From assembly GCF_020723905.1 (NCBI RefSeq), contig NZ_DYHZ01000003.1, positions 1-64,000 of the forward strand: a stretch of 64,000 nucleotides of DNA. The letters are read 5' to 3'. The position numbers and the translations under genes are program-made. This document shows positions 24,828-35,753 of the stretch, in pieces; positions within the stretch are counted from its first letter, which is position 1, and every line of letters starts with the position of its first letter. This stretch comes from Anaerolinea thermophila (GTDB lineage: Bacteria > Chloroflexota > Anaerolineae > Anaerolineales > Anaerolineaceae). A model generated the notes under the pieces. That model saw only the letters and a program-made list of their open reading frames with translations. It was not told the origin of the DNA and searched no databases.

Positions 24828-27800
24828 ATGACGGTCACAAAACCTGTAGCGGTAGTTGGTTTGGGGGTGGTTTTGCCAGATGCGCCAGATGTACCGACTT
24901 TTTGGGACAACCTGAAGTCGGGAAAATATTCCATCGGTGAAGTGCCACCCGATCGCTGGCGAATTGATCTATATTACGACCCGGATCCAAAAGCACCGGA
25001 TAAAACCTACTCAAAAATTGGCGCATTTGTTCGCCACTTTCAATTCGAACCGTATAAATGGGGAATTGCCATTCCACCGCGTGTGATTGAGCAAATGGAC
25101 CAGACCCAGCAATGGGCAATTGCCGCTGCCCGGCAGGCATTAATGGATTTTGGTTACCCACAGAGACCTCTGGACCCTCAGCGAGTAGCGGTGATACTGG
25201 GAAACGCATTAGGGGGAGAAAGACACTACCTGACCAGTATGCGTATTCGCGCTGCAGAGTACCAGGCGACGCTGACAGCAGTGCCGGAATTCAAATCTTT
25301 GCCTCCTTCGGTACAGGAAGCCATTCTCGAGGGCATTCGGAAACAATTCTGCGCTTCAGTTCCAGATATTACTGAAGATACCATGCCCGGAGAATTGGGA
25401 AATATCATTGCGGGTAGAGTGGCAAACGTTTTTAATTTCCAGGGTCCTAATTTTATTACGGATGCGGCGTGTGCTTCCTCGCTGGCGGCAATTCAGGCAG
25501 CAGTGGATGGATTGAACAATTATCACTTTGATGCTGTCCTTACTGGCGGTGTGGATCGGAGTATGAGCATCGAAGGGTATGTGAAATTCAGTAAGATTGG
25601 CGCATTAAGCCCTGATGGTTCTCGCCCGTATGCGGATGGCGCGAACGGCTTTGTTCAGGGGGAAGGTGCAGCGATCTTCTTGCTCAAACGGCTTGAAGAT
25701 GCAGAAAAAGATGGTGATCGTATTTATGCTGTCATTCGTGGCGTTGGAAGCAGTAGTGACGGAAAGGGGAAGGGCATCACAGCACCCAACCCGACTGGAC
25801 AACAGCAAGCCATTGAACGCGCCTGGAAAAATGCCGGAGTATCGCCGGCTACTGTGAGCATGATTGAAGGGCATGGTACTTCAACGCGGGTCGGAGATGT
25901 TGTTGAAGTGAACAGTTTGACCGCAATTTTTGGGCAGTTTGACTTGAAACCCGGTAGTGTGGCGTTGGGTTCTGTAAAATCGAACATTGGACATTTGAAG
26001 AGTGCCGCAGGCGCTGCTGGGTTAATGAAAACTGTCTTAGCCTTACACCACAAAGAAATTCCCCCTACATTGAATGTGGAACGTCCAAATCCCAATATTG
26101 ACTTTGCCCATATCCCGTTCTATCCCAATACTGTCTTGCGTGCTTGGGAAGTTAAACAGGGTGAAGTCCGACGTGCCGGGGTCAGTTCCTTTGGATTTGG
26201 AGGGACAAATTTCCATCTGGTTGTGGATGAATATATTCCCGGAATTTTACAGGCAGAAAAGAAAGTGTACTCGGGGGTGGATATAACTTACAGATCTGAG
26301 TCGGTCCCGGTTGAGGTTCCATTGGCTAAGGAGAGTTTGCCAGCCCCTTATCGTGGGTTGTACTTTGCCAGCGCAGATACGGGAGAAGGATTGAAACACG
26401 AAGTGGAAAAAGCGCTTCGTCAGGCTCAGCAAGGGATGTTACCCGAGAGCCGCATTCCTTCTGTAGAAGAACTGGAACGGCCTGAGCGTATTGCCATTGA
26501 TTACAGTGATCGGGATGAGTTCATCAAACGCGCTGAGCGTGCGTTGAAAGGCTTTGAAAGCGCCTCGGACAACAATCCATGGCAGGCGCTTGTAGCGCAT
26601 GGTGTCTTCCGGGGCAGTGGACAGGCGGGAAAGGTGGCTTTTCTGTTCCCCGGACAGGGCTCTCAATACGTGAACATGCTCAAAGACCTGTGTGAGGTGG
26701 AACCAGTTGCCGCTCAAACCTTTGCGGAAGCAGATCAAATCATGAAGCCAATCCTGGGCAAACCTCTTACAGAATATATTTACGTCTCAGGAGATGAAGC
26801 CTCTCTGGCGGAAGCCGAAAAAGCCCTGCGCAATACTGAAATCACCCAGCCGGCAATGTTGACAGCCAACGTTGCCATGATGCGCTTGCTCAACAAATTT
26901 GGCTTTGCTCCCGATATGGTGATAGGTCACAGTCTGGGTGAATATGCCGCGCTGGTCGCTGCAGGGGTGTTGACGTTTGCAGAGGCTCTGGAGGTGGTTT
27001 CTGCCCGCGGGCGAGAGATGAAACGGGTAGCCATGGAAGATAACGGCGCTATGGCGGCTGTCTCTGCTCCTATTGAAAAAGTGGAGAAAATTCTTGAGAC
27101 TATCCCCGATTATGTGGTCATTGCCAACATTAACAGTCCTCTTCAGTGTGTCATTGGTGGGACAACTCGAGGAGTGGACCTGGCTCTGGAAGCCTTCCAG
27201 CAGGCAGGGTATCAGGGAACAAAAATTCCGGTTTCTCACGCCTTCCATACCCGCATTGTTGCTCCCGCCAGTCAACCACTGCGGGAAGTGATTGCTCGTA
27301 TGAACATCCAGCCTCCTCAACTCACGGTTGCTGCCAACGTAACCGGAGAGGTTTACCCCAACACAAGAGAAGAAATACTGGACTTGCTTGCCGCACAGGT
27401 GGCTTCTCCTGTCCAGTTCATTAAGGGAATTGAAACGCTGTATCGCGAAGGCGCCAGGGTTTTCATTGAAGTGGGTCCCAAACGGGTTTTGAATGCCCTG
27501 GCAATGGATATCCTCAAAGGCAAGCCGGATGTGACGATCTTAGCCACCAATCATCCCCGGGAAGGTGCGGTGGTCAGTTTCAACAAAGCACTCTGCGGAC
27601 TCCTTGCGGCTGGGGTCAAACCAAAAGGCGCTCGACCTTTTTATACTGATTCGACCGTAATTTCCTCTGCACCGGTTCAAGAAGCATCTGTAGTCCAAAA
27701 GTTTGAATCGCAGCCGCTGTCTTTATCCCGGGTGTCCGAACCACAGAATAAAGAGGAGATAAAACGGTACGTCCTGAATCTGGTGAGCGAAAAGACCGGA

Positions 27801-30800
27801 TACCCTGTGGAGATGCTGGATCTTGACCTTGACCTGGAAGCCGATCTGGGCATTGATACGGTCAAGCAGGCGGAACTCTTTGCAACGATTCGTACCCACT
27901 ACAATATCCCCCGACGGGAGGATTTGCGCCTTTCTGATTACAACACCCTTGCAAAAGTCATTGATTTTATGGCTGAAGCCCTGGCACAGGTGTCTGAAGG
28001 GCAAAAGGAAAGCCAGGCGGCTTTCCCGGTGGCTCAACAAAAAGCAGAAAAACAAATTTCTCTCCCTGAGATGAGTAGGGGGGCATTCCCCCGGGAGACG
28101 GTTGCGACTCCTTCAGGCGGGGATGGCAGGCTTCCGCTTACCGGATCGGTTGTTATCAGTGGGGCTGGTTTAGGTTTGCCCGGTAAGAACCGTCGGGTTT
28201 TCGATGATGCCAACATTTCCAGCATCCTCCGGGGAGAGATTCGGATTGAACCGCTTCCTGAAGAACTGAGAGAGCGCATGGCAAAGAAACGGGCGATCCG
28301 GCTGGTGAAAAGTGAAGCCGGCGCCATTCAGGAAGTGATTGATCGGATAGACCAGACGGTGAAACTGGGTGGACAACGGGGCACGTTTGATTTGATTGAG
28401 GAATTTGGTGTCCCGACTGACCGGGTGGAGGCTACTGACATCAGCACTCAACTGGCAATCGCTGCAGGGATTGAAGCCCTGCGGGACGCCGGTATCCCAC
28501 TTGTGATGGCATATCGCCGCACCAGTAAAGGAACGTATCTGCCGGATCGCTGGAAACTTCCTGAAGCCCTTGCAGATGAAACCGGAGTGATCTTCGCATC
28601 TGCATTTCCCGGTCTGGATCGAATGGCAGAAGAGGCACAGCGATTCTATGAAGTCCAGACTCTGGAAGCGCAAATGAATCAACTTCAGGATGTGCAAAAC
28701 CTTTTGCCACCCGACTCTGATGCGTATAAAGAGATTCAACGCCGGATCGATACGCTGAAAGCAAGATACCATGCCCTGGATTATCATTTTGACCGGAGGT
28801 TTGTCTTTCGGGTACTGAGCATGGGGCACTCGCAGTTTGCAGAGTATATCGGTGCTCGAGGACCAAATACCCATGTCAACGCTGCCTGTGCAACCACAAC
28901 CCATGCCATTGCCATCGCGGAAGATTGGATTCGCTCCGGCAGAGCCCGGCGGGTGGTGATTATTGCTGGGGATGATGTTACCTCTGGGCCTCTCTCAGAA
29001 TGGATTGGCACCAGCCTGATGGCGAGCGGTGCGGCAACGGTGGAGGGAGATCCTCGCAAAGCCATTTTGCCATTCGATCGCCGGCGTAATGGCATGATTA
29101 TGGGAATGGGTGCCGCCGCGCTGGTAATTGAATCCGAAGATGCTGTTCGAGAACGTGGTATGCATGGCATCGCGGAAATTCTGGCATCTCAAATTGCCAA
29201 CAGTGCGTACCATGGCACCCGCCTGGATGTTGAGCATGTTGCCTTCGTGATGGAGCGCTTGATACAGCAGGCTGAACAACGCTTTGGGGTTCGGCGGACG
29301 GATCTTGCAGAGCAAATGGTTTTTGTATCTCATGAGACCTATACCCCCGCACGTGGAGGAAGTGCCTCGGCTGAAATACGCGCTTTAAGGCAGGTCTTCG
29401 GTGCTGATGCCCCCCGGATCATCATTGCCAACACCAAGGGCTTCACCGGTCACTCCATGGGGGTTGGCATTGAGGATGTGGTGGCAGTGAAGTCCCTTGA
29501 AACCGGAATGGTTCCACCCATTGCAAACATTCATGATGACTTTGAACCAGACCCTGAGTTGGGCGATTTGAATCTGTCCAAAGGAGGGCAATACAACCCC
29601 ATCTATGCACTCCGGCTTGGAGCAGGGTTCGGCTCTCAACTGGCAATGGTATTGTTGAGGAAGATCCCTGTTTTGGAGCGTGTGGAAAAAGAGACTTACA
29701 TTAACTGGTTGCGGGAAGTTAGCGGTTATGAAAAGGTGACGCTGGAAGTAGAACATCGCACTTTGCGTATCCGACATGACGGTCCCCCGGTAAAACCCCC
29801 ACGAAAGTCGCTCTGGCAGTATGGCTTTGGTCCTACCATGTGGGCAGTATCTCCGGGACAAAGTCAGGTTCCTTCCCCACAGACAATTCCACAACCGCTT
29901 ATCCAGAATCCTGTCCCGGAGAAGGTGACAGAGCCGGAAATAGCCCAAGCCGATTATGGCTCAGGTTCAGAGTCTAGAGGTTCGCGTCCGGGATTGGAAG
30001 AAGAAATTAAACAGTTTGTATTGGCGGTTGTCAGCGAAAAAACAGGCTATCCTCAGGAGATGCTGGATTTAGACCTGGACCTGGAAGCCGATCTTGGAAT
30101 AGATACCGTCAAACAGGCAGAACTTTTTGCCACCATCCGCACACATTACAACATTCCCAGACGGGAAGATTTGCGCCTTGCTGATTACAATACCCTGGCA
30201 AAGGTGATTCAATTCATGAAAGAGGCTCTCCTCCAGTCCGAGGGGCATTTTCAACCCGATCCAGATCAGGAGAAGCAGCCTGCCCAACCGCGACCGGAAT
30301 CCGGCAGTTCCTCTTTGCTGGATGAGGAGTCCATAAAACAGTTTGTTTTGAATGTGGTGAGCGAGAAAACTGGCTATCCAATCGAAATGCTGGATCTGGA
30401 TTTAGATCTGGAAGCCGATTTGGGGATAGATACGGTTAAACAGGCTGAACTGTTTGCAACCATCCGTTCCCACTACAACATTCCCCGGAGAGAGGACTTG
30501 CGGCTATCGGATTACAACACACTTGCCAAAGTCATCGCATTTATGCGAGAAGCACTGGAAGAGCAGTCAGGCGCATCAAAACCGTCAAATGGGAGTGAGG
30601 AAAACGATACAGGGGGGGCGGAAAAAGTACTTCCTGCTCAGTCGTCCCCCGATTCTCTCTGTGGGGTTGCGGAGAACGGTCAGGAGATGCCTCAATCGGA
30701 GGAACCCTCTGCCGAGAAACAGGATCTTTCCCAACAATCCGTTCTTCAGGTGCGCATCCCTGTTCCGGTTCTCATTCCTCATCCTGCGCTGAGCATTCCA

Positions 30801-33263
30801 TCAGGTGTGCTATTGAATGAAAATGCCCGCATCCTGATTCTGGATGGAAAGGAAGGCGCAGGAGAAGCGCTGGAAGAACTCCTTAAAAGCAAAGGCGTTC
30901 AGACCTATCGTTTCCATCCTGAATCGATGCGCGAAATAAACGAAGCAGTGACTAGATTTGCCTCTCAAGGGGAGGTCCACGGGGTGTATTTCCTGCCAGC
31001 GCTGGATCACGAGCCATCTCTGGCTACCTTCGAACCTCAAAAATGGCAGGAAATGGTGGAGAGCCATGCGCACTGGTTGTTTACCCTTATTCGTTCGTTG
31101 AATGGAGAACCTTTCGTCATTGCTGCCACTCGGATGGGAGGTCTTCATGGTGTGGAAGATGTTCTGCCCGGTGGCGCTTTTGGCGGATTAACCTCGGGTT
31201 TCATCAAAGCCTTGAGCATGGAACGTCCCAGTGCGCTCATCAAGGTAGTGGATTTTGAGCAGGATGCACAGAACCACTGGGTTGCCGAACGGTTGCTTGA
31301 GGAAACCCTCTTTGATGCTTCTACCTGTGAGGTGGGTTGGAAGGAAAATCAGCGTTTTACTTTCATCCTGAAAGAAGCCGAATCAGCCCCGCTGAACAAT
31401 CTGGAGCATCTTCATACGTTTGTGGTTACCGGTGCTTCCGGTGGAATCGTAGGTCCCATCCTGCTGGATTTGGCGAAATATACTCAGGGAACTTTCTATT
31501 TGCTCAGCCGTACCTCTTTGCCCGATCCGAATGATCCTGATCTTGAGGCACTTGCCCGGGACCGCAATGCATTCCGAAAAGCCCTGGCTGAGCGACTGTA
31601 TCAGCAGGGAGAACGGGCTACCCCATCCGCAGTCGAGCAGAAAATTGCAGCGTTGGAGAGGGGTTTGGCAGCCATCAAAATCATTGAAGAAATGCGGTCT
31701 TTGGGAGCAAAGGTGCATTATCTCCCCTGTGATGTCACCCAACCTGAATCGGTTAAAGAAGCGGTTGATCAAATCTTGAAAGATACTTCCAGTATTGATG
31801 TCATTCTTCACGCCGCGGGGATTGAGAAAAGTCGCAAAATTGAGACCAAGCCCTTTGAGGAATTTGCCCAGATTCTTTCGGTCAAAGTCAATGGCTTTTA
31901 CAATCTCTTCAAAGCCTTTGAGTCCAGGGGAGTTTTACCCCACCAGGTTGTGTTCTTTTCATCCGTTGCCGGGCGATTTGGAAACGCCGGTCAGACGGAT
32001 TACAGCGCGGCAAATGATTTTCTTTCAAAACTGGCAGGTGTGTTCTCACTGGAATACCCTCAGATGAATTGTGTGAGTATAGATTGGGGAGCGTGGGCAG
32101 AAGTTGGCATGGCAAGTCGGGGATTTTTGCCTGAACTGATGAAACGGGCCGGAATTGAAATGCTCTCCCCAGAGATTGCCGCTCCACAAGTCCGTTACCT
32201 GCTGGCACAAAAGAAAAAAGGTGAGGTGGTCGTTGCCGGTTCGCTGGGTGTATTGGAAACCCAGAGGCTTGAACAGGAATGTCTGAACCTTGAGCAAGCC
32301 AATCAATTGCTGGCAAATCCTGCCCGGAGACACTTCTTATTTGAGCGCATTACAGGATTCAAATTGGGAGAGGGGCTGACATTTGAGGGAGAACTTGATC
32401 CTGGCCAGCATCCATTTTTGCATGATCATGCATTGAATGGAATTCCCTTGTTGCCGGGTGTCATGGGAATCGAAGGTCTGGCAGTAGTGTCTCAACAGAT
32501 GGCGAACCTGTTTTCTTACAATCATAGAGACTATAGGATTGCTTCGCTTGCCAGCATTCACTTCCTCATGCCCTTAAAGTTTTACCGGAATCAGGCAAGA
32601 AAGTTGATTTGGAAAACCCAACTGACCTATCATGACAATCAACTGGTAGGGGATGTGAGCCTGGAATCGACCATTCAGCGTTATGGTAGAGACCCGGAAA
32701 CCATGGTGCATTTCACTGCCCGGGTATTCCTTGTGCCAGATGAGGGAAGAAAGGGTGAAATTCGGAGCAATCCACCTTACTGGAACGGTTCCCATCAATT
32801 ATCTGCGGAAGAGGTATACCGGTTGTATTTCCACGGTCCTTCCTTCCAGGTGATAGAGGGCGTTCAGAGAAAAGATGGCAAATTGATTGGAAAGTGGAGG
32901 AAAGATTTACCCCCTGTTGCAGATTCCATGACCGAATGGGCTACTTTGCCAATGCTTGTTGAACTTTGTCTGCAAACTGCCGGGGTGTGGGAGATTGGAA
33001 AGACGGGAGTACTTGCCTTGCCAAGATCCATTGAACGGTTGGATATTTACCGTACCTCTATACCGAGACAATCATCTTTATTTGCTGAGGTTGAGCCTGT
33101 TCAAATCGGGGATCATCCAATGAGGTTTGATGCTCGCGTTGTAGATGGTAAAGGAAAGGTGTATCTGGAATTGAAGGGTTACCAGACTGAACCGCTCCCT
33201 TATCCTGTTGAACCGGAACTGCTCTCCACTTTGACCCAGTGGGTTCAGATGCCAGAGAGGTGA
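24828..33263 (+). CDS. PUFA-synthase-like megasynthase (KS-AT-ACP-KS-ACP-ACP-KR-DH)
   Basis: 2811 aa. The domains in order are as follows. KS1 spans 1-470, with Cys215 in DAACASSLA, then EGHGTSTRVGD and SNIGHLKSAAG. The AT spans about 600-925, with Ser702 in GHSLGEYAA. ACP1 is about 979-1047. A second KS spans about 1103-1614, with Cys1354 in NAACATTTHA, His in VSHETYTPARGG and His in GFTGHSMGVG. ACP2 and ACP3 follow near 1728-1797 and 1837-1906. The KR is about 1990-2465, with VTGASGGIVG and the Ser-Tyr-Asn set in FSSVAGRFGN and TDYSAAND. A PS-type DH hotdog spans 2503-2800, with HPFLHDHALNG. All three ACPs read LGIDTVKQAELFA, with Thr (1011, 1760, 1869) at the usual Ser. The neighbouring PfaD and phosphopantetheinyl transferase point to a Pfa-like secondary-lipid pathway. 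The product cannot be predicted. AGGAGG precedes the ATG. Confidence 0.93.
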   Translation: MTVTKPVAVVGLGVVLPDAPDVPTFWDNLKSGKYSIGEVPPDRWRIDLYYDPDPKAPDKTYSKIGAFVRHFQFEPYKWGIAIPPRVIEQMDQTQQWAIAAARQALMDFGYPQRPLDPQRVAVILGNALGGERHYLTSMRIRAAEYQATLTAVPEFKSLPPSVQEAILEGIRKQFCASVPDITEDTMPGELGNIIAGRVANVFNFQGPNFITDAACASSLAAIQAAVDGLNNYHFDAVLTGGVDRSMSIEGYVKFSKIGALSPDGSRPYADGANGFVQGEGAAIFLLKRLEDAEKDGDRIYAVIRGVGSSSDGKGKGITAPNPTGQQQAIERAWKNAGVSPATVSMIEGHGTSTRVGDVVEVNSLTAIFGQFDLKPGSVALGSVKSNIGHLKSAAGAAGLMKTVLALHHKEIPPTLNVERPNPNIDFAHIPFYPNTVLRAWEVKQGEVRRAGVSSFGFGGTNFHLVVDEYIPGILQAEKKVYSGVDITYRSESVPVEVPLAKESLPAPYRGLYFASADTGEGLKHEVEKALRQAQQGMLPESRIPSVEELERPERIAIDYSDRDEFIKRAERALKGFESASDNNPWQALVAHGVFRGSGQAGKVAFLFPGQGSQYVNMLKDLCEVEPVAAQTFAEADQIMKPILGKPLTEYIYVSGDEASLAEAEKALRNTEITQPAMLTANVAMMRLLNKFGFAPDMVIGHSLGEYAALVAAGVLTFAEALEVVSARGREMKRVAMEDNGAMAAVSAPIEKVEKILETIPDYVVIANINSPLQCVIGGTTRGVDLALEAFQQAGYQGTKIPVSHAFHTRIVAPASQPLREVIARMNIQPPQLTVAANVTGEVYPNTREEILDLLAAQVASPVQFIKGIETLYREGARVFIEVGPKRVLNALAMDILKGKPDVTILATNHPREGAVVSFNKALCGLLAAGVKPKGARPFYTDSTVISSAPVQEASVVQKFESQPLSLSRVSEPQNKEEIKRYVLNLVSEKTGYPVEMLDLDLDLEADLGIDTVKQAELFATIRTHYNIPRREDLRLSDYNTLAKVIDFMAEALAQVSEGQKESQAAFPVAQQKAEKQISLPEMSRGAFPRETVATPSGGDGRLPLTGSVVISGAGLGLPGKNRRVFDDANISSILRGEIRIEPLPEELRERMAKKRAIRLVKSEAGAIQEVIDRIDQTVKLGGQRGTFDLIEEFGVPTDRVEATDISTQLAIAAGIEALRDAGIPLVMAYRRTSKGTYLPDRWKLPEALADETGVIFASAFPGLDRMAEEAQRFYEVQTLEAQMNQLQDVQNLLPPDSDAYKEIQRRIDTLKARYHALDYHFDRRFVFRVLSMGHSQFAEYIGARGPNTHVNAACATTTHAIAIAEDWIRSGRARRVVIIAGDDVTSGPLSEWIGTSLMASGAATVEGDPRKAILPFDRRRNGMIMGMGAAALVIESEDAVRERGMHGIAEILASQIANSAYHGTRLDVEHVAFVMERLIQQAEQRFGVRRTDLAEQMVFVSHETYTPARGGSASAEIRALRQVFGADAPRIIIANTKGFTGHSMGVGIEDVVAVKSLETGMVPPIANIHDDFEPDPELGDLNLSKGGQYNPIYALRLGAGFGSQLAMVLLRKIPVLERVEKETYINWLREVSGYEKVTLEVEHRTLRIRHDGPPVKPPRKSLWQYGFGPTMWAVSPGQSQVPSPQTIPQPLIQNPVPEKVTEPEIAQADYGSGSESRGSRPGLEEEIKQFVLAVVSEKTGYPQEMLDLDLDLEADLGIDTVKQAELFATIRTHYNIPRREDLRLADYNTLAKVIQFMKEALLQSEGHFQPDPDQEKQPAQPRPESGSSSLLDEESIKQFVLNVVSEKTGYPIEMLDLDLDLEADLGIDTVKQAELFATIRSHYNIPRREDLRLSDYNTLAKVIAFMREALEEQSGASKPSNGSEENDTGGAEKVLPAQSSPDSLCGVAENGQEMPQSEEPSAEKQDLSQQSVLQVRIPVPVLIPHPALSIPSGVLLNENARILILDGKEGAGEALEELLKSKGVQTYRFHPESMREINEAVTRFASQGEVHGVYFLPALDHEPSLATFEPQKWQEMVESHAHWLFTLIRSLNGEPFVIAATRMGGLHGVEDVLPGGAFGGLTSGFIKALSMERPSALIKVVDFEQDAQNHWVAERLLEETLFDASTCEVGWKENQRFTFILKEAESAPLNNLEHLHTFVVTGASGGIVGPILLDLAKYTQGTFYLLSRTSLPDPNDPDLEALARDRNAFRKALAERLYQQGERATPSAVEQKIAALERGLAAIKIIEEMRSLGAKVHYLPCDVTQPESVKEAVDQILKDTSSIDVILHAAGIEKSRKIETKPFEEFAQILSVKVNGFYNLFKAFESRGVLPHQVVFFSSVAGRFGNAGQTDYSAANDFLSKLAGVFSLEYPQMNCVSIDWGAWAEVGMASRGFLPELMKRAGIEMLSPEIAAPQVRYLLAQKKKGEVVVAGSLGVLETQRLEQECLNLEQANQLLANPARRHFLFERITGFKLGEGLTFEGELDPGQHPFLHDHALNGIPLLPGVMGIEGLAVVSQQMANLFSYNHRDYRIASLASIHFLMPLKFYRNQARKLIWKTQLTYHDNQLVGDVSLESTIQRYGRDPETMVHFTARVFLVPDEGRKGEIRSNPPYWNGSHQLSAEEVYRLYFHGPSFQVIEGVQRKDGKLIGKWRKDLPPVADSMTEWATLPMLVELCLQTAGVWEIGKTGVLALPRSIERLDIYRTSIPRQSSLFAEVEPVQIGDHPMRFDARVVDGKGKVYLELKGYQTEPLPYPVEPELLSTLTQWVQMPER

Positions 33264-34000
33264 GCACCATCTACGTTCTGATCCATACGATTGAGGACAG
33301 TCAGGCGTTCTGGGAAGAAGCCGGGTTTGATACCTGGCTTTCTCCTCGAGAAAAAGAACGCCTGACTGCTCTACGTTTTCAGAAAAGACGGAATGAATGG
33401 TTGCACGGACGCTGGGTTGCCAAACAACTGTTGAAACGGGTTTGTCCTTCTTTTCAAGCATTGCCTTTATCAGACATGGTCATTGATAATCTCCTGGATG
33501 GTTCCCCGATATTTATGACGCAGGATCAGGAAGTCTCTGGTGATCTTTCAATCAGTCATCGTGAGGGCTGGGCATGCGTGGCTTTCTCGTCCAGTGGGAA
33601 TTTCCACATTGGCATAGATGTCGAGAAGGTGGAAAAGAGAGAACTCGCTTTCTACACAGATTACTTTTCAGACCGGGAAATTGAGGGTGAAAGACTTTTC
33701 CCTCTTTCCAGGGAAGCATATTTTACCCTTCTCTGGAGTGCAAAAGAGTCTGTGGTGAAAGCGCTTAAAACTGGATTGCGCATAGATGTGCAAAAAATAG
33801 AAGTTTTTCCACAAAAGTTTGAACGTGAAACGGTCCCATCTCCACCTCCATACGGATGGTTAGCCTTTTCCTGCCAGGTCTCAGGGATGGATGGAAACTG
33901 GGTGGGTTTCTGGCAAAAGCGTGAGGAATTCATCATCACTCTGGCTTGTCGCTGTGTGAATCAAAAAGAGCCTGTTTCGCTTCAAGAAATCAGGCTCTAA
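33260..34000 (+). CDS. Sfp-type 4'-phosphopantetheinyl transferase
   Basis: 246 aa from GTG 33260. This start forms a 4-bp GTGA overlap with the megasynthase stop, indicating coupled translation. The frame extends to a GTG at 33239 that has no ribosome site. Family motifs are HIGIDVEKVEKRELAFYTDY (the GxDxE magnesium site) and LLWSAKESVVKALKTGL (WxxKES). It should transfer phosphopantetheine from CoA to the three ACPs of the upstream protein. Coupling to that gene makes it a dedicated partner, notable because those ACPs have Thr at the attachment position. Confidence 0.92.
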   Translation: MSTIYVLIHTIEDSQAFWEEAGFDTWLSPREKERLTALRFQKRRNEWLHGRWVAKQLLKRVCPSFQALPLSDMVIDNLLDGSPIFMTQDQEVSGDLSISHREGWACVAFSSSGNFHIGIDVEKVEKRELAFYTDYFSDREIEGERLFPLSREAYFTLLWSAKESVVKALKTGLRIDVQKIEVFPQKFERETVPSPPPYGWLAFSCQVSGMDGNWVGFWQKREEFIITLACRCVNQKEPVSLQEIRL

Positions 34001-34022: not shown

Positions 34023-35603
34023 TTAAGCCAGAGGGGTTGCGGGTTTATAATCCTTCAAGGAGTGGGGGATCTGCCCTCCCTGGATCTCAATAAAGCGAAC
34101 CCTTGCCAGATACGCTGCCCCTTTCATTAAGTGTAGGGCAACATCGACCACATGACGATTTTCCGGCTTTTCCAGATAACTGCCACGAACCCAATCGTTG
34201 AATGTCCCCATGGCAGGTCCGCACCAGATTTGATAGTCCATTTCCCTTCCTTTTTCGCCTGTGTTCGACCATCTTGAAGACAGCCCAAGGTACCAGCGGA
34301 ATACCAGAGCCATTTTGTGATGGGGATCCTGCCGGGCTCGTTCTAATTGTCTGGGGTCCCTTTCTGCAAAGAATTTTTCTGTGTCCTGCCAGATTTCTTC
34401 AAACTTCCGTTTGAACACGGTGGTTTCAAGGCGAGTCCTTTCTGTTTGGGGGATGTCCTCCCATTGAGAATACCGGGAATACAACTCATATAATTTGGAG
34501 GCACGACTGGCAAACATGGTACCGCGTTTGAGAACCTGGACTTTTACCCCCATTTCAAACATATCTGCCGCTGGAGCCATGGCAACATCCGCCATATCCG
34601 CCTGGACAAGCAGGTTGCGGGTGTGTTCCGAGGCTCCAGATTCCACGCAAGATTGGTTTACCGATCCGGTGACAACGTACGCGGCTCCCATCATGAATGC
34701 GGCAAGCACTGACTGTGGGGTGCTGATTCCGCCGGCAGCACCAATACGCACAGGGGTTTCATACTGGTATTTGGACTGGAGGTCGTCCCGCACGGCTATC
34801 ATGGTGGGGATCAATCCCACCAGAGGGCGATTATCGGTGTGTCCCCCGGAGTCTGCCTCTACAGTAATATCATCCGCCATTGGGATTTTGGATGCCAGTT
34901 GTGCCTGTTCATCGGTGATTTTGCCTTCGCTCAATAGTTGCGCTACGAGATCTGCCGGAGCAGGAGAGAGAAACCGTGTAGCCACCTCTTTCCGCGATAT
35001 CTTTGCAATGATGCGGTTTTTAATCCTGATTTTGCCGTTTGAATCCCGTGATAATCCACTTAATCGGTACCATACCAGCGGGTAAGTGATATCGAGATAA
35101 GCGGAAGCCTCGATGACCTGAACTCCATAATTCAAATACAACTCAACCACTTTTCGTTCGAGATAAGGCTCGTTGGGGCTGTTCAGCAGGTTGAAGGCAT
35201 AAGGTCCCTGAGGGAGGGCTTGCTGGATTTCATGGATTGCACTTTCGACTCGTTGAGGTGAGCATCCGCCCGCCCCAAAAGACGCCAGTATCTTTTCCTT
35301 GCCCAGGGCAATGACCAGGCGTTCTGAGGCAATTGCGTTTGCCATAGCACCGGCGTAATATGCCAGTCTCACCCCGTAGGTTTTCTTAAAACCGGGGTCT
35401 CCTAAGGATTCCGGAAGCACTGCCGGGACAAAAACACCAGGCTCACCTGACGGTAGATGGGTATCGGAGCCAATTTTCCAGGTTCCTGACTCCTGAATTA
35501 TCCAGAATGGGGTATCCAGGGATTCCAGATAGGATTTCAACGCGGTTGTTGAATCCAATGTGGTTAATTTCGGGTGTTCGTGCGGTGAAGAGGGATGAAT
35601 CAT
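34023..35603 (-). CDS. pfaD: PfaD-family FMN-dependent enoyl reductase
   Basis: 526 aa from ATG 35603, with GAGG five bases upstream; the frame is open to a TTG at 35636. It is a TIM-barrel, nitronate-monooxygenase-like flavoprotein of the PfaD type. ILASFGAGGCSP, the conserved DDITVEADSGGHTDNRP block, RIGAAGGISTPQSVLAAFMMGA, and MFEMGVKVQVLKRGTMFASRA are characteristic of it. PfaD is the trans-acting enoyl reductase of PUFA synthases. The megasynthase has KR and DH but no ER domain, so this protein supplies the missing step. It is convergent with the transferase gene, 23 bp apart, so it has its own promoter upstream of 35636. Confidence 0.94.
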   Translation of the reverse strand: MIHPSSPHEHPKLTTLDSTTALKSYLESLDTPFWIIQESGTWKIGSDTHLPSGEPGVFVPAVLPESLGDPGFKKTYGVRLAYYAGAMANAIASERLVIALGKEKILASFGAGGCSPQRVESAIHEIQQALPQGPYAFNLLNSPNEPYLERKVVELYLNYGVQVIEASAYLDITYPLVWYRLSGLSRDSNGKIRIKNRIIAKISRKEVATRFLSPAPADLVAQLLSEGKITDEQAQLASKIPMADDITVEADSGGHTDNRPLVGLIPTMIAVRDDLQSKYQYETPVRIGAAGGISTPQSVLAAFMMGAAYVVTGSVNQSCVESGASEHTRNLLVQADMADVAMAPAADMFEMGVKVQVLKRGTMFASRASKLYELYSRYSQWEDIPQTERTRLETTVFKRKFEEIWQDTEKFFAERDPRQLERARQDPHHKMALVFRWYLGLSSRWSNTGEKGREMDYQIWCGPAMGTFNDWVRGSYLEKPENRHVVDVALHLMKGAAYLARVRFIEIQGGQIPHSLKDYKPATPLA

Positions 35604-35753
35604 ACCAACCTCATCAATTTGGTGGAATACACTCAATATAACCCTGTGAGGCTCTGACCGATGCGCAATGGGGGTGAAGATGATTTATTGATGTAGAACA
35701 AAGCCTCTTGAGATCTTATCTGGTATGATTATTCCAAGAGTTGGAGGAATTGC

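Follow-up and report, generated by a model that had tools for sequence, protein, structure and literature searches.

Genetic organization of the locus

The DNA analyzed here, referred to as the window, is a stretch of 64,000 nucleotides from Anaerolinea thermophila (Chloroflexota, family Anaerolineaceae; assembly GCF_020723905.1, contig NZ_DYHZ01000003.1, positions 1 to 64,000). It includes the gene of a type I iterative lipid synthase, three acyl carrier protein (ACP) domains of which have threonine at the phosphopantetheine position, and the frame of a Sfp-type phosphopantetheinyl transferase, which shares 25 bases with the 3′ end of the synthase gene. The remaining domains of the synthase are ketosynthases (KS), acyltransferase (AT), ketoreductase (KR) and dehydratase (DH). 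The features relevant to the carriers, identified from open reading frames (ORFs), domain matches and matches to hidden Markov models (HMMs), are the following:

24828..33263, + strand: type I iterative lipid synthase, 2811 aa, KS1-AT-ACP1-KS2-ACP2-ACP3-KR-DH (ORF, Pfam domains, TIGR02813)
27756..27968, + strand: ACP1 (HMM match)
27858..27860, + strand: codon ACG of Thr1011, phosphopantetheine position of ACP1 (sequence)
30003..30215, + strand: ACP2 (HMM match, structure model)
30105..30107, + strand: codon ACC of Thr1760, in ACP2 (sequence)
30333..30542, + strand: ACP3 (HMM match)
30432..30434, + strand: codon ACG of Thr1869, in ACP3 (sequence)
33239..34000, + strand: Sfp-type phosphopantetheinyl transferase (PF01648, 64.5 bits versus a cut-off of 25)

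Threonine at the attachment site of the three carrier domains

Serine is generally treated as the phosphopantetheine attachment residue of carrier proteins, and LGIDS is the typical attachment motif of PfaA ACPs. The carrier protein family PF00550 matches three stretches of the synthase (67.5 bits), KS2 being placed between ACP1 and ACP2. The sequence LGIDTVKQAELFA occurs three times in ORF 24828-33263(+), at residues 1007, 1756 and 1865, and in all three window ACPs the attachment Ser of PF00550, which is also the Ser of LGIDS, is replaced by Thr. A degenerate pattern of the motif gives exactly three matches in the whole genome, and the reversed control gives none. When 75-residue stretches of the ACP copies are compared pairwise, 67-68 residues are shared, with only 166-174 of the 225 bases; 34-37 of the codons for identical residues differ silently, and the copies are therefore old. 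Both chance and a recent copying artefact can be ruled out by these silent differences together with the fixation of Thr in relatives described below. A first-pass annotation of the window had placed Thr at about residues 1011, 1760 and 1869, with codons ACG, ACC and ACG, and had argued from the divergence at the DNA level against recent copying. The residues and codons are as it stated, and its argument holds on the same two grounds.

An AlphaFold model of ACP2, obtained with a 20-sequence alignment, has a mean pLDDT of 92.7, and its helix II begins at the Thr. The first residue of this helix is the position of the phosphopantetheine Ser in ACPs. Of the 50 listed PDB matches to the model, most are acyl carrier proteins, either free or within complexes, and some are holo or acylated forms. 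The TM-scores of the matches, taken by query length, are 0.64-0.85.

Threonine is fixed in the synthase family

Relatives were collected in two ways. A search with the ACP as query covered 61 genomes (that of the window and 60 relatives), 26 of which matched. The loci obtained are of two kinds, one with G(I/V)DTVKQAE and the other, in six genomes, with the PfaA-type sequence GIDSIK(R/K)VE. The second search used the KS2 alignment, so that loci were not chosen by their ACPs, and the best 80 of 484 relatives were taken. By their record titles, most of these 80 belong to Chloroflexota; two are titled Archangiaceae and Myxococcales. In these loci plus the window, 223 ACP matches extend over the site, and every one of them has Thr there (eight further matches stop short of it). 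Two phyla supplied more members: in that of the Myxococcales record they occurred in 20 of 195 genomes, and in that of the window in 23 of 400 sampled ones; 20 regions from each set were used. The complete KS2-fetched set comprises 121 loci including the window, with 119 distinct KS2 ORFs and 343 ACP matches. Ten of these matches lack the site and were dropped from the count; all of the 333 readable ones have Thr, corresponding to 300/300 distinct cores (window included). The site is readable in 110 of the 121 loci (unreadable in L102, L113, L117, L118, L130, L184, L194, L228, L229, L234 and L238). The 20 loci from the ACP query contribute 53 Thr and 3 Ser. All three Ser are in L053, a locus of PfaA type that has no ORF of the KS2 family. 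These figures should be read taking into account that the two sets overlap, that some genomes were fetched twice, that tandem ACPs of one protein are not independent and that one match in the count, from L111, is in an unusual ORF with a possible frame shift.

BLAST of a plasmid collection identified a close relative in Nonomuraea gerenzanensis (Actinomycetota). A single ACP was found in it, with DLGVDTVKQAE, and a transferase match lies in an ORF beginning about 1.8 kb downstream. Among viral contigs there were 40 pattern matches, none of them encoding a synthase relative. Judged by the sequences compared, Thr at the ACP site is a fixed trait of this family. The remark, in the first-pass annotation, on similar motifs in other polyunsaturated fatty acid (PUFA)-like synthases applies throughout this synthase family, but it does not extend to the PfaA-type ACPs of the same order, which have Ser in 12/12 distinct cores from six genomes.

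Constraint on the threonine codon and on neighbouring residues

Changes in the site codon were counted by the Fitch method on a FastTree tree of KS2 from 106 proteins, taken with no selection for Thr; the tree has a length of 22.7 substitutions per site, and each distinct protein is represented by its first ACP after KS2. Base 1 and base 2 show no change, and base 3 has changed 37 times. A single change at base 1 (ACN to TCN) suffices to convert Thr into Ser, and none is seen on the tree. All four Thr codons are in use (ACG 183, ACC 102, ACT 25 and ACA 20 in 330 distinct Thr contexts). In 109 rows selected for Thr, 17 of the 70 scored ACP columns are without change; the Thr site is hence among the most constrained columns, but not alone. 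The Thr is invariant and under strong purifying selection.

The residues next to the site are also characteristic. Together with Thr there is Val at +1 (2 Ile), Gln at +3 in 299/299 cores with a letter at that position and Ala at +4 in 298/298, whereas the Ser-type PfaA cores have Ile at +1, Arg or Lys at +3 and Val at +4. G-x-D before the site and E after it are conserved and are the same as in Ser-type carriers.

A transferase gene is linked or fused to the synthase

Asp, Glu, Glu and Lys are the catalytic residues of Sfp-type transferases. The window transferase aligns to the Sfp structures 1qr0/4mrt, and D127, E170 and K174 are kept in 74/74, and E129 in 73/74, distinct relatives with matches above 60 bits, weaker matches being omitted. 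Linkage was examined with 86 distinct KR-DH ORFs, 82 of which have at least 1300 bases downstream. In 77 of these 82 loci a transferase is either encoded on the same strand within 1.3 kb downstream (74 loci) or fused to the synthase (3 loci), in keeping with the coupled transferase of the first-pass annotation. The three fusions (L190, L191 and L192, from the Myxococcota set) have the transferase as C-terminal domain of chains carrying 5, 4 and 3 Thr ACPs, and some of these ACPs are in novel positions, following KS1 or lying between KR and DH. A synthase of this type is a chain that could activate its own carriers.

The catalytic domains of the synthase

The remaining domains of the synthase and the neighbouring reductase gene are located as follows:

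24828..26237, + strand: KS1, Cys215-His349-His389 (Pfam, catalytic columns)
26598..27617, + strand: AT, Ser702/His807 (Pfam, catalytic columns)
28338..29777, + strand: KS2, Cys1354-His1502-His1542 kept (sequence)
31248..32147, + strand: KR region (Pfam)
32238..33260, + strand: DH region, His2534/Glu2712 (Pfam, catalytic columns)
34023..35636, - strand: PfaD-type enoyl reductase, candidate for the last reductive step (TIGR02814, 680.8 bits versus a cut-off of 449.25)

The synthase scores 1037.4 bits with TIGR02813 (PfaA, NCBIfam), above the cut-off of 1010.1. Since KS2 keeps Cys-His-His it is, by sequence, an intact KS and not a chain-length factor (CLF). In 122 distinct family ORFs, Cys/His/His of both KS1 and KS2, Ser/His of AT, Tyr of KR and His/Glu of DH are present wherever they can be read, the sole exception being one X at the DH Glu (L236); gaps affect 0 to 44 of the 122 ORFs depending on the column, contig ends, split ORFs and misalignment being pooled. 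The KR serine varies more, with Ser in 62 ORFs, Gly in 12, Thr in 7 and a gap in 41. As the key catalytic residues are kept across the family, a decayed synthase can be ruled out. The number of ACPs found per family synthase varies from 1 to 6, and a PfaD gene lies within 4.5 kb on the opposite strand in 29 of the 58 family loci with room for it.

Fatty acid synthesis enzymes in the host and its family

The genome of the window (99.96% complete, by estimate) has five PF00550 matches, namely the three Thr ACPs and two stand-alone Ser ACPs. One of the latter (L138, G000:C2:103044) lies between two AMP-forming ligase-like ORFs, in what may be a small carrier cluster. Two transferases are encoded, the Sfp-type one beside the synthase and one of AcpS type elsewhere. 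No FabF or FabH was found above cut-off in this genome. The FabF matches in it are KS1 and KS2 of the window synthase, and PF02801 matches KS1 and, weakly, an ORF read as thiolase-like. As these are the only FabF-like condensing domains found in the genome, the synthase probably supplies fatty acids there. The one PF08541 match above cut-off (L147, G000:C10:110422) was considered as FabH and rejected, since its sequence and the thiolase-like gene beside it point to HMG-CoA synthase. The succession of an HMG-CoA synthase-like and a thiolase-like gene at L147 suggests a mevalonate route.

FabF is above cut-off in 0/37 genomes of the window's family (f1) and in 24/24 of the other families in the order, and FabH in 0/37 and 23/24, respectively; not all of the f1 genomes are complete, and weaker FabH-like matches, of up to 252.7 bits versus a cut-off of 292.1, occur in some. 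FabZ (PF07977) is uninformative as a type II marker, with a match in 6/61 genomes. PF07977 (FabA/FabZ) is absent from all 24 FabF-bearing genomes, so type II synthesis there may use another dehydratase. The Thr synthase, or a piece of it, is present in 18 of the 37 f1 genomes, and one other genome (G003) has a KS fragment. In G001 the Thr synthase is accompanied by a second KS-bearing frame of 1744 residues. In 12 f1 genomes (G009, G012, G014, G015, G019, G021, G022, G023, G025, G027, G032 and G036; two of them 99% complete) both FabF-like matches (E up to 1e-10) and ACP matches to this synthase are missing, and these genomes may lack de novo fatty acid synthesis. Where the Thr synthase stands alone, it is likely the source of membrane fatty acids.

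Interpretation

We propose, with a probability of about 0.8, that the co-encoded Sfp-type transferase attaches 4′-phosphopantetheine to Thr, and not to Ser, of the three ACPs of this iterative lipid synthase. Thr loading is favoured because Thr is invariant, no other Ser of the domain is conserved, the catalytic residues are kept, a transferase is linked or fused to the synthase and the position of Thr in the predicted fold is the canonical one. The phosphopantetheinyl-Thr bond itself is the best explanation of this set of observations. Once the three carriers were activated, KS, AT, KR and DH on one chain would build the lipid iteratively, the PfaD-type protein being likely the separate enoyl reductase, and the product would be a saturated long-chain fatty acid. 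Position +4 is about one helix turn away from the site, and a smaller residue there may consequently make room for the methyl group of Thr; Ala at +4 and Gln at +3 would both have a part in accommodating it.

The first-pass annotation had left two options, modification of Thr by the transferase or carriers that work differently, and the former is now the better supported. An unlikely alternative is that the Thr domains are never loaded and act as scaffolds or docking domains, a stand-alone Ser ACP carrying the chain in trans. The two stand-alone Ser ACPs and the AcpS-type transferase of the genome would permit such an arrangement, the variable number of ACPs (1 to 6) would suit it, and the S36T form of E. 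coli AcpP is reported to be inert (PMC3340395). Yet a scaffold would hardly be expected to keep a hydroxyl residue in 300/300 cores, never replaced by Ala, Gly or any other, to be flanked by the G-x-D and E of Ser-type carriers, and to have a transferase linked or fused in 77/82 loci. It is very improbable that the arm sits on a different residue of the domain, for instance a Ser or Thr elsewhere. The columns richest in Ser are 11 (145/296) and 61 (93/291); columns 14 (302/306) and 65 (294/296) are wholly or almost wholly Thr, and Thr is common at 41 (122/305). With a best Ser column of only 145/296, however, no other Ser of the domain is conserved, and the modification of another Ser, which the first-pass annotation had named as the outcome that would speak against Thr, finds no conserved candidate. 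The Thr of columns 14 and 65 are outside helix II in the ACP2 model and are shared with Ser-type PfaA ACPs (column 14 in 12/12; column 65 in 11 of 12, 11 being those that reach the column), while the Thr of the site is at the canonical place. Finally, a poorly loaded Thr might have been fixed by drift in one ancestor and kept by history, a generalist transferase being enough and no special chemistry being needed. Fixation of the trait within one family (in a tree without a Ser outgroup) makes a single origin plausible. Even so, Ser is one base away and was never seen while the silent base changed 37 times, and Gln at +3 and Ala at +4 are fixed together with Thr, so that we regard this alternative as improbable, if less so than an arm on another residue.

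Several observations weigh against the proposed loading of Thr or limit its role. The inert AcpP S36T indicates that at least the E. coli machinery rejects Thr in that context. Neither a mass spectrum nor a structure showing the arm on Thr could be found. By the linkage rule, 5 of the 82 loci (L052, L125, L181, L185 and L236) are without an adjacent transferase, L185 having a weaker overlapping match. With respect to the family f1, six genomes show only a Ser-type PfaA-like synthase and, as described, 12 of 37 have neither a FabF-like nor an ACP match; because of this, the Thr synthase is not the only condensing enzyme of f1, and fatty acid synthesis may be dispensable in that family. A wider proposal is offered tentatively and at somewhat less than even odds: that O-(4′-phosphopantetheinyl)threonine would be an obligatory and natural modification in at least three phyla, made by a dedicated and sometimes fused transferase, and that it would carry all de novo fatty acid synthesis in those Anaerolineaceae which have only this condensing enzyme, Ser carriers and AcpS forming a separate channel.

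With Thr fixed and no reversion to Ser, such a family would extend a central modification to a second type of acceptor residue. It may also provide an orthogonal carrier/transferase pair for engineering, as well as a testable rule (Thr with Ala at +4). If Thr is indeed loaded, annotation keyed on Ser can call working carriers inactive. Should the synthase replace FabF and FabH in part of the Anaerolineaceae, this would help to explain how lipids are made there without the standard condensing enzymes.

Comparison with known systems

The synthase resembles a known kind, and Thr at its carrier site is unremarked in the literature that was found. No report of a natural Thr carrier site was recognised among the matches listed in open PMC full text, which mostly omits subscription journals. 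The closest system is the Type R secondary lipid synthase, a single protein of the order KS-MAT-CLF-ACP(3-6)-KR with a transferase gene downstream, described from Roseiflexus, Koribacter, Solibacter and Elusimicrobium, Acidobacteria being among them (Shulse and Allen 2011, PMC3098273). The words "threonine" and "LGIDS" do not occur in its main text. The window locus is like Type R in having a PfaA-like synthase with tandem ACPs, KR and a transferase gene downstream (33239-34000). It differs in having one ACP before the second KS, DH after KR and an adjoining PfaD gene; moreover, its second KS keeps Cys-His-His, whereas the domain at that place is described as CLF in PMC3098273. Two of the loci collected here are of interest in this respect. 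The one titled Roseiflexus sp. (L119), which is not a strain named in PMC3098273, has four Thr ACPs and a KS2 with 61% identity, and another (L221) has the order KS-AT-KS-ACP6-KR-DH with six Thr ACPs.

With PfaA, the window synthase shares a TIGR02813 score above cut-off, tandem ACPs and a PfaD partner. The Ser-type ACPs of the same order, however, have GIDSIK(R/K)VE in 12/12 distinct cores, and the Thr family has G(I/V)DTVKQAE, the residues flanking the site deviating in a few cases. Like Sfp-type transferases, the window enzyme keeps the catalytic Asp, Glu, Glu and Lys and can be aligned to Sfp; unlike them, it would, by its linkage, serve Thr carriers, and its counterparts in three Myxococcota-set loci are part of the synthase chain.

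Replacement of the attachment Ser by Thr has a precedent in laboratory mutants. AcpP S36T of E. coli is reported not to be modifiable by 4′-phosphopantetheine and not to replace acpP (PMC3340395), not to suppress a lapD defect (PMC9456370) and to have lost IscS binding (PMC13343975). S38T or S38C in spinach ACP-I changed the conformation and abolished function, as cited in a paper on sorghum (PMC9310384). Thr is at the attachment site both in AcpP(S36T) and in the window ACPs, but in the former it is a laboratory dead control, whereas in the latter it is natural and fixed, and is accompanied by other changes and by a linked transferase.
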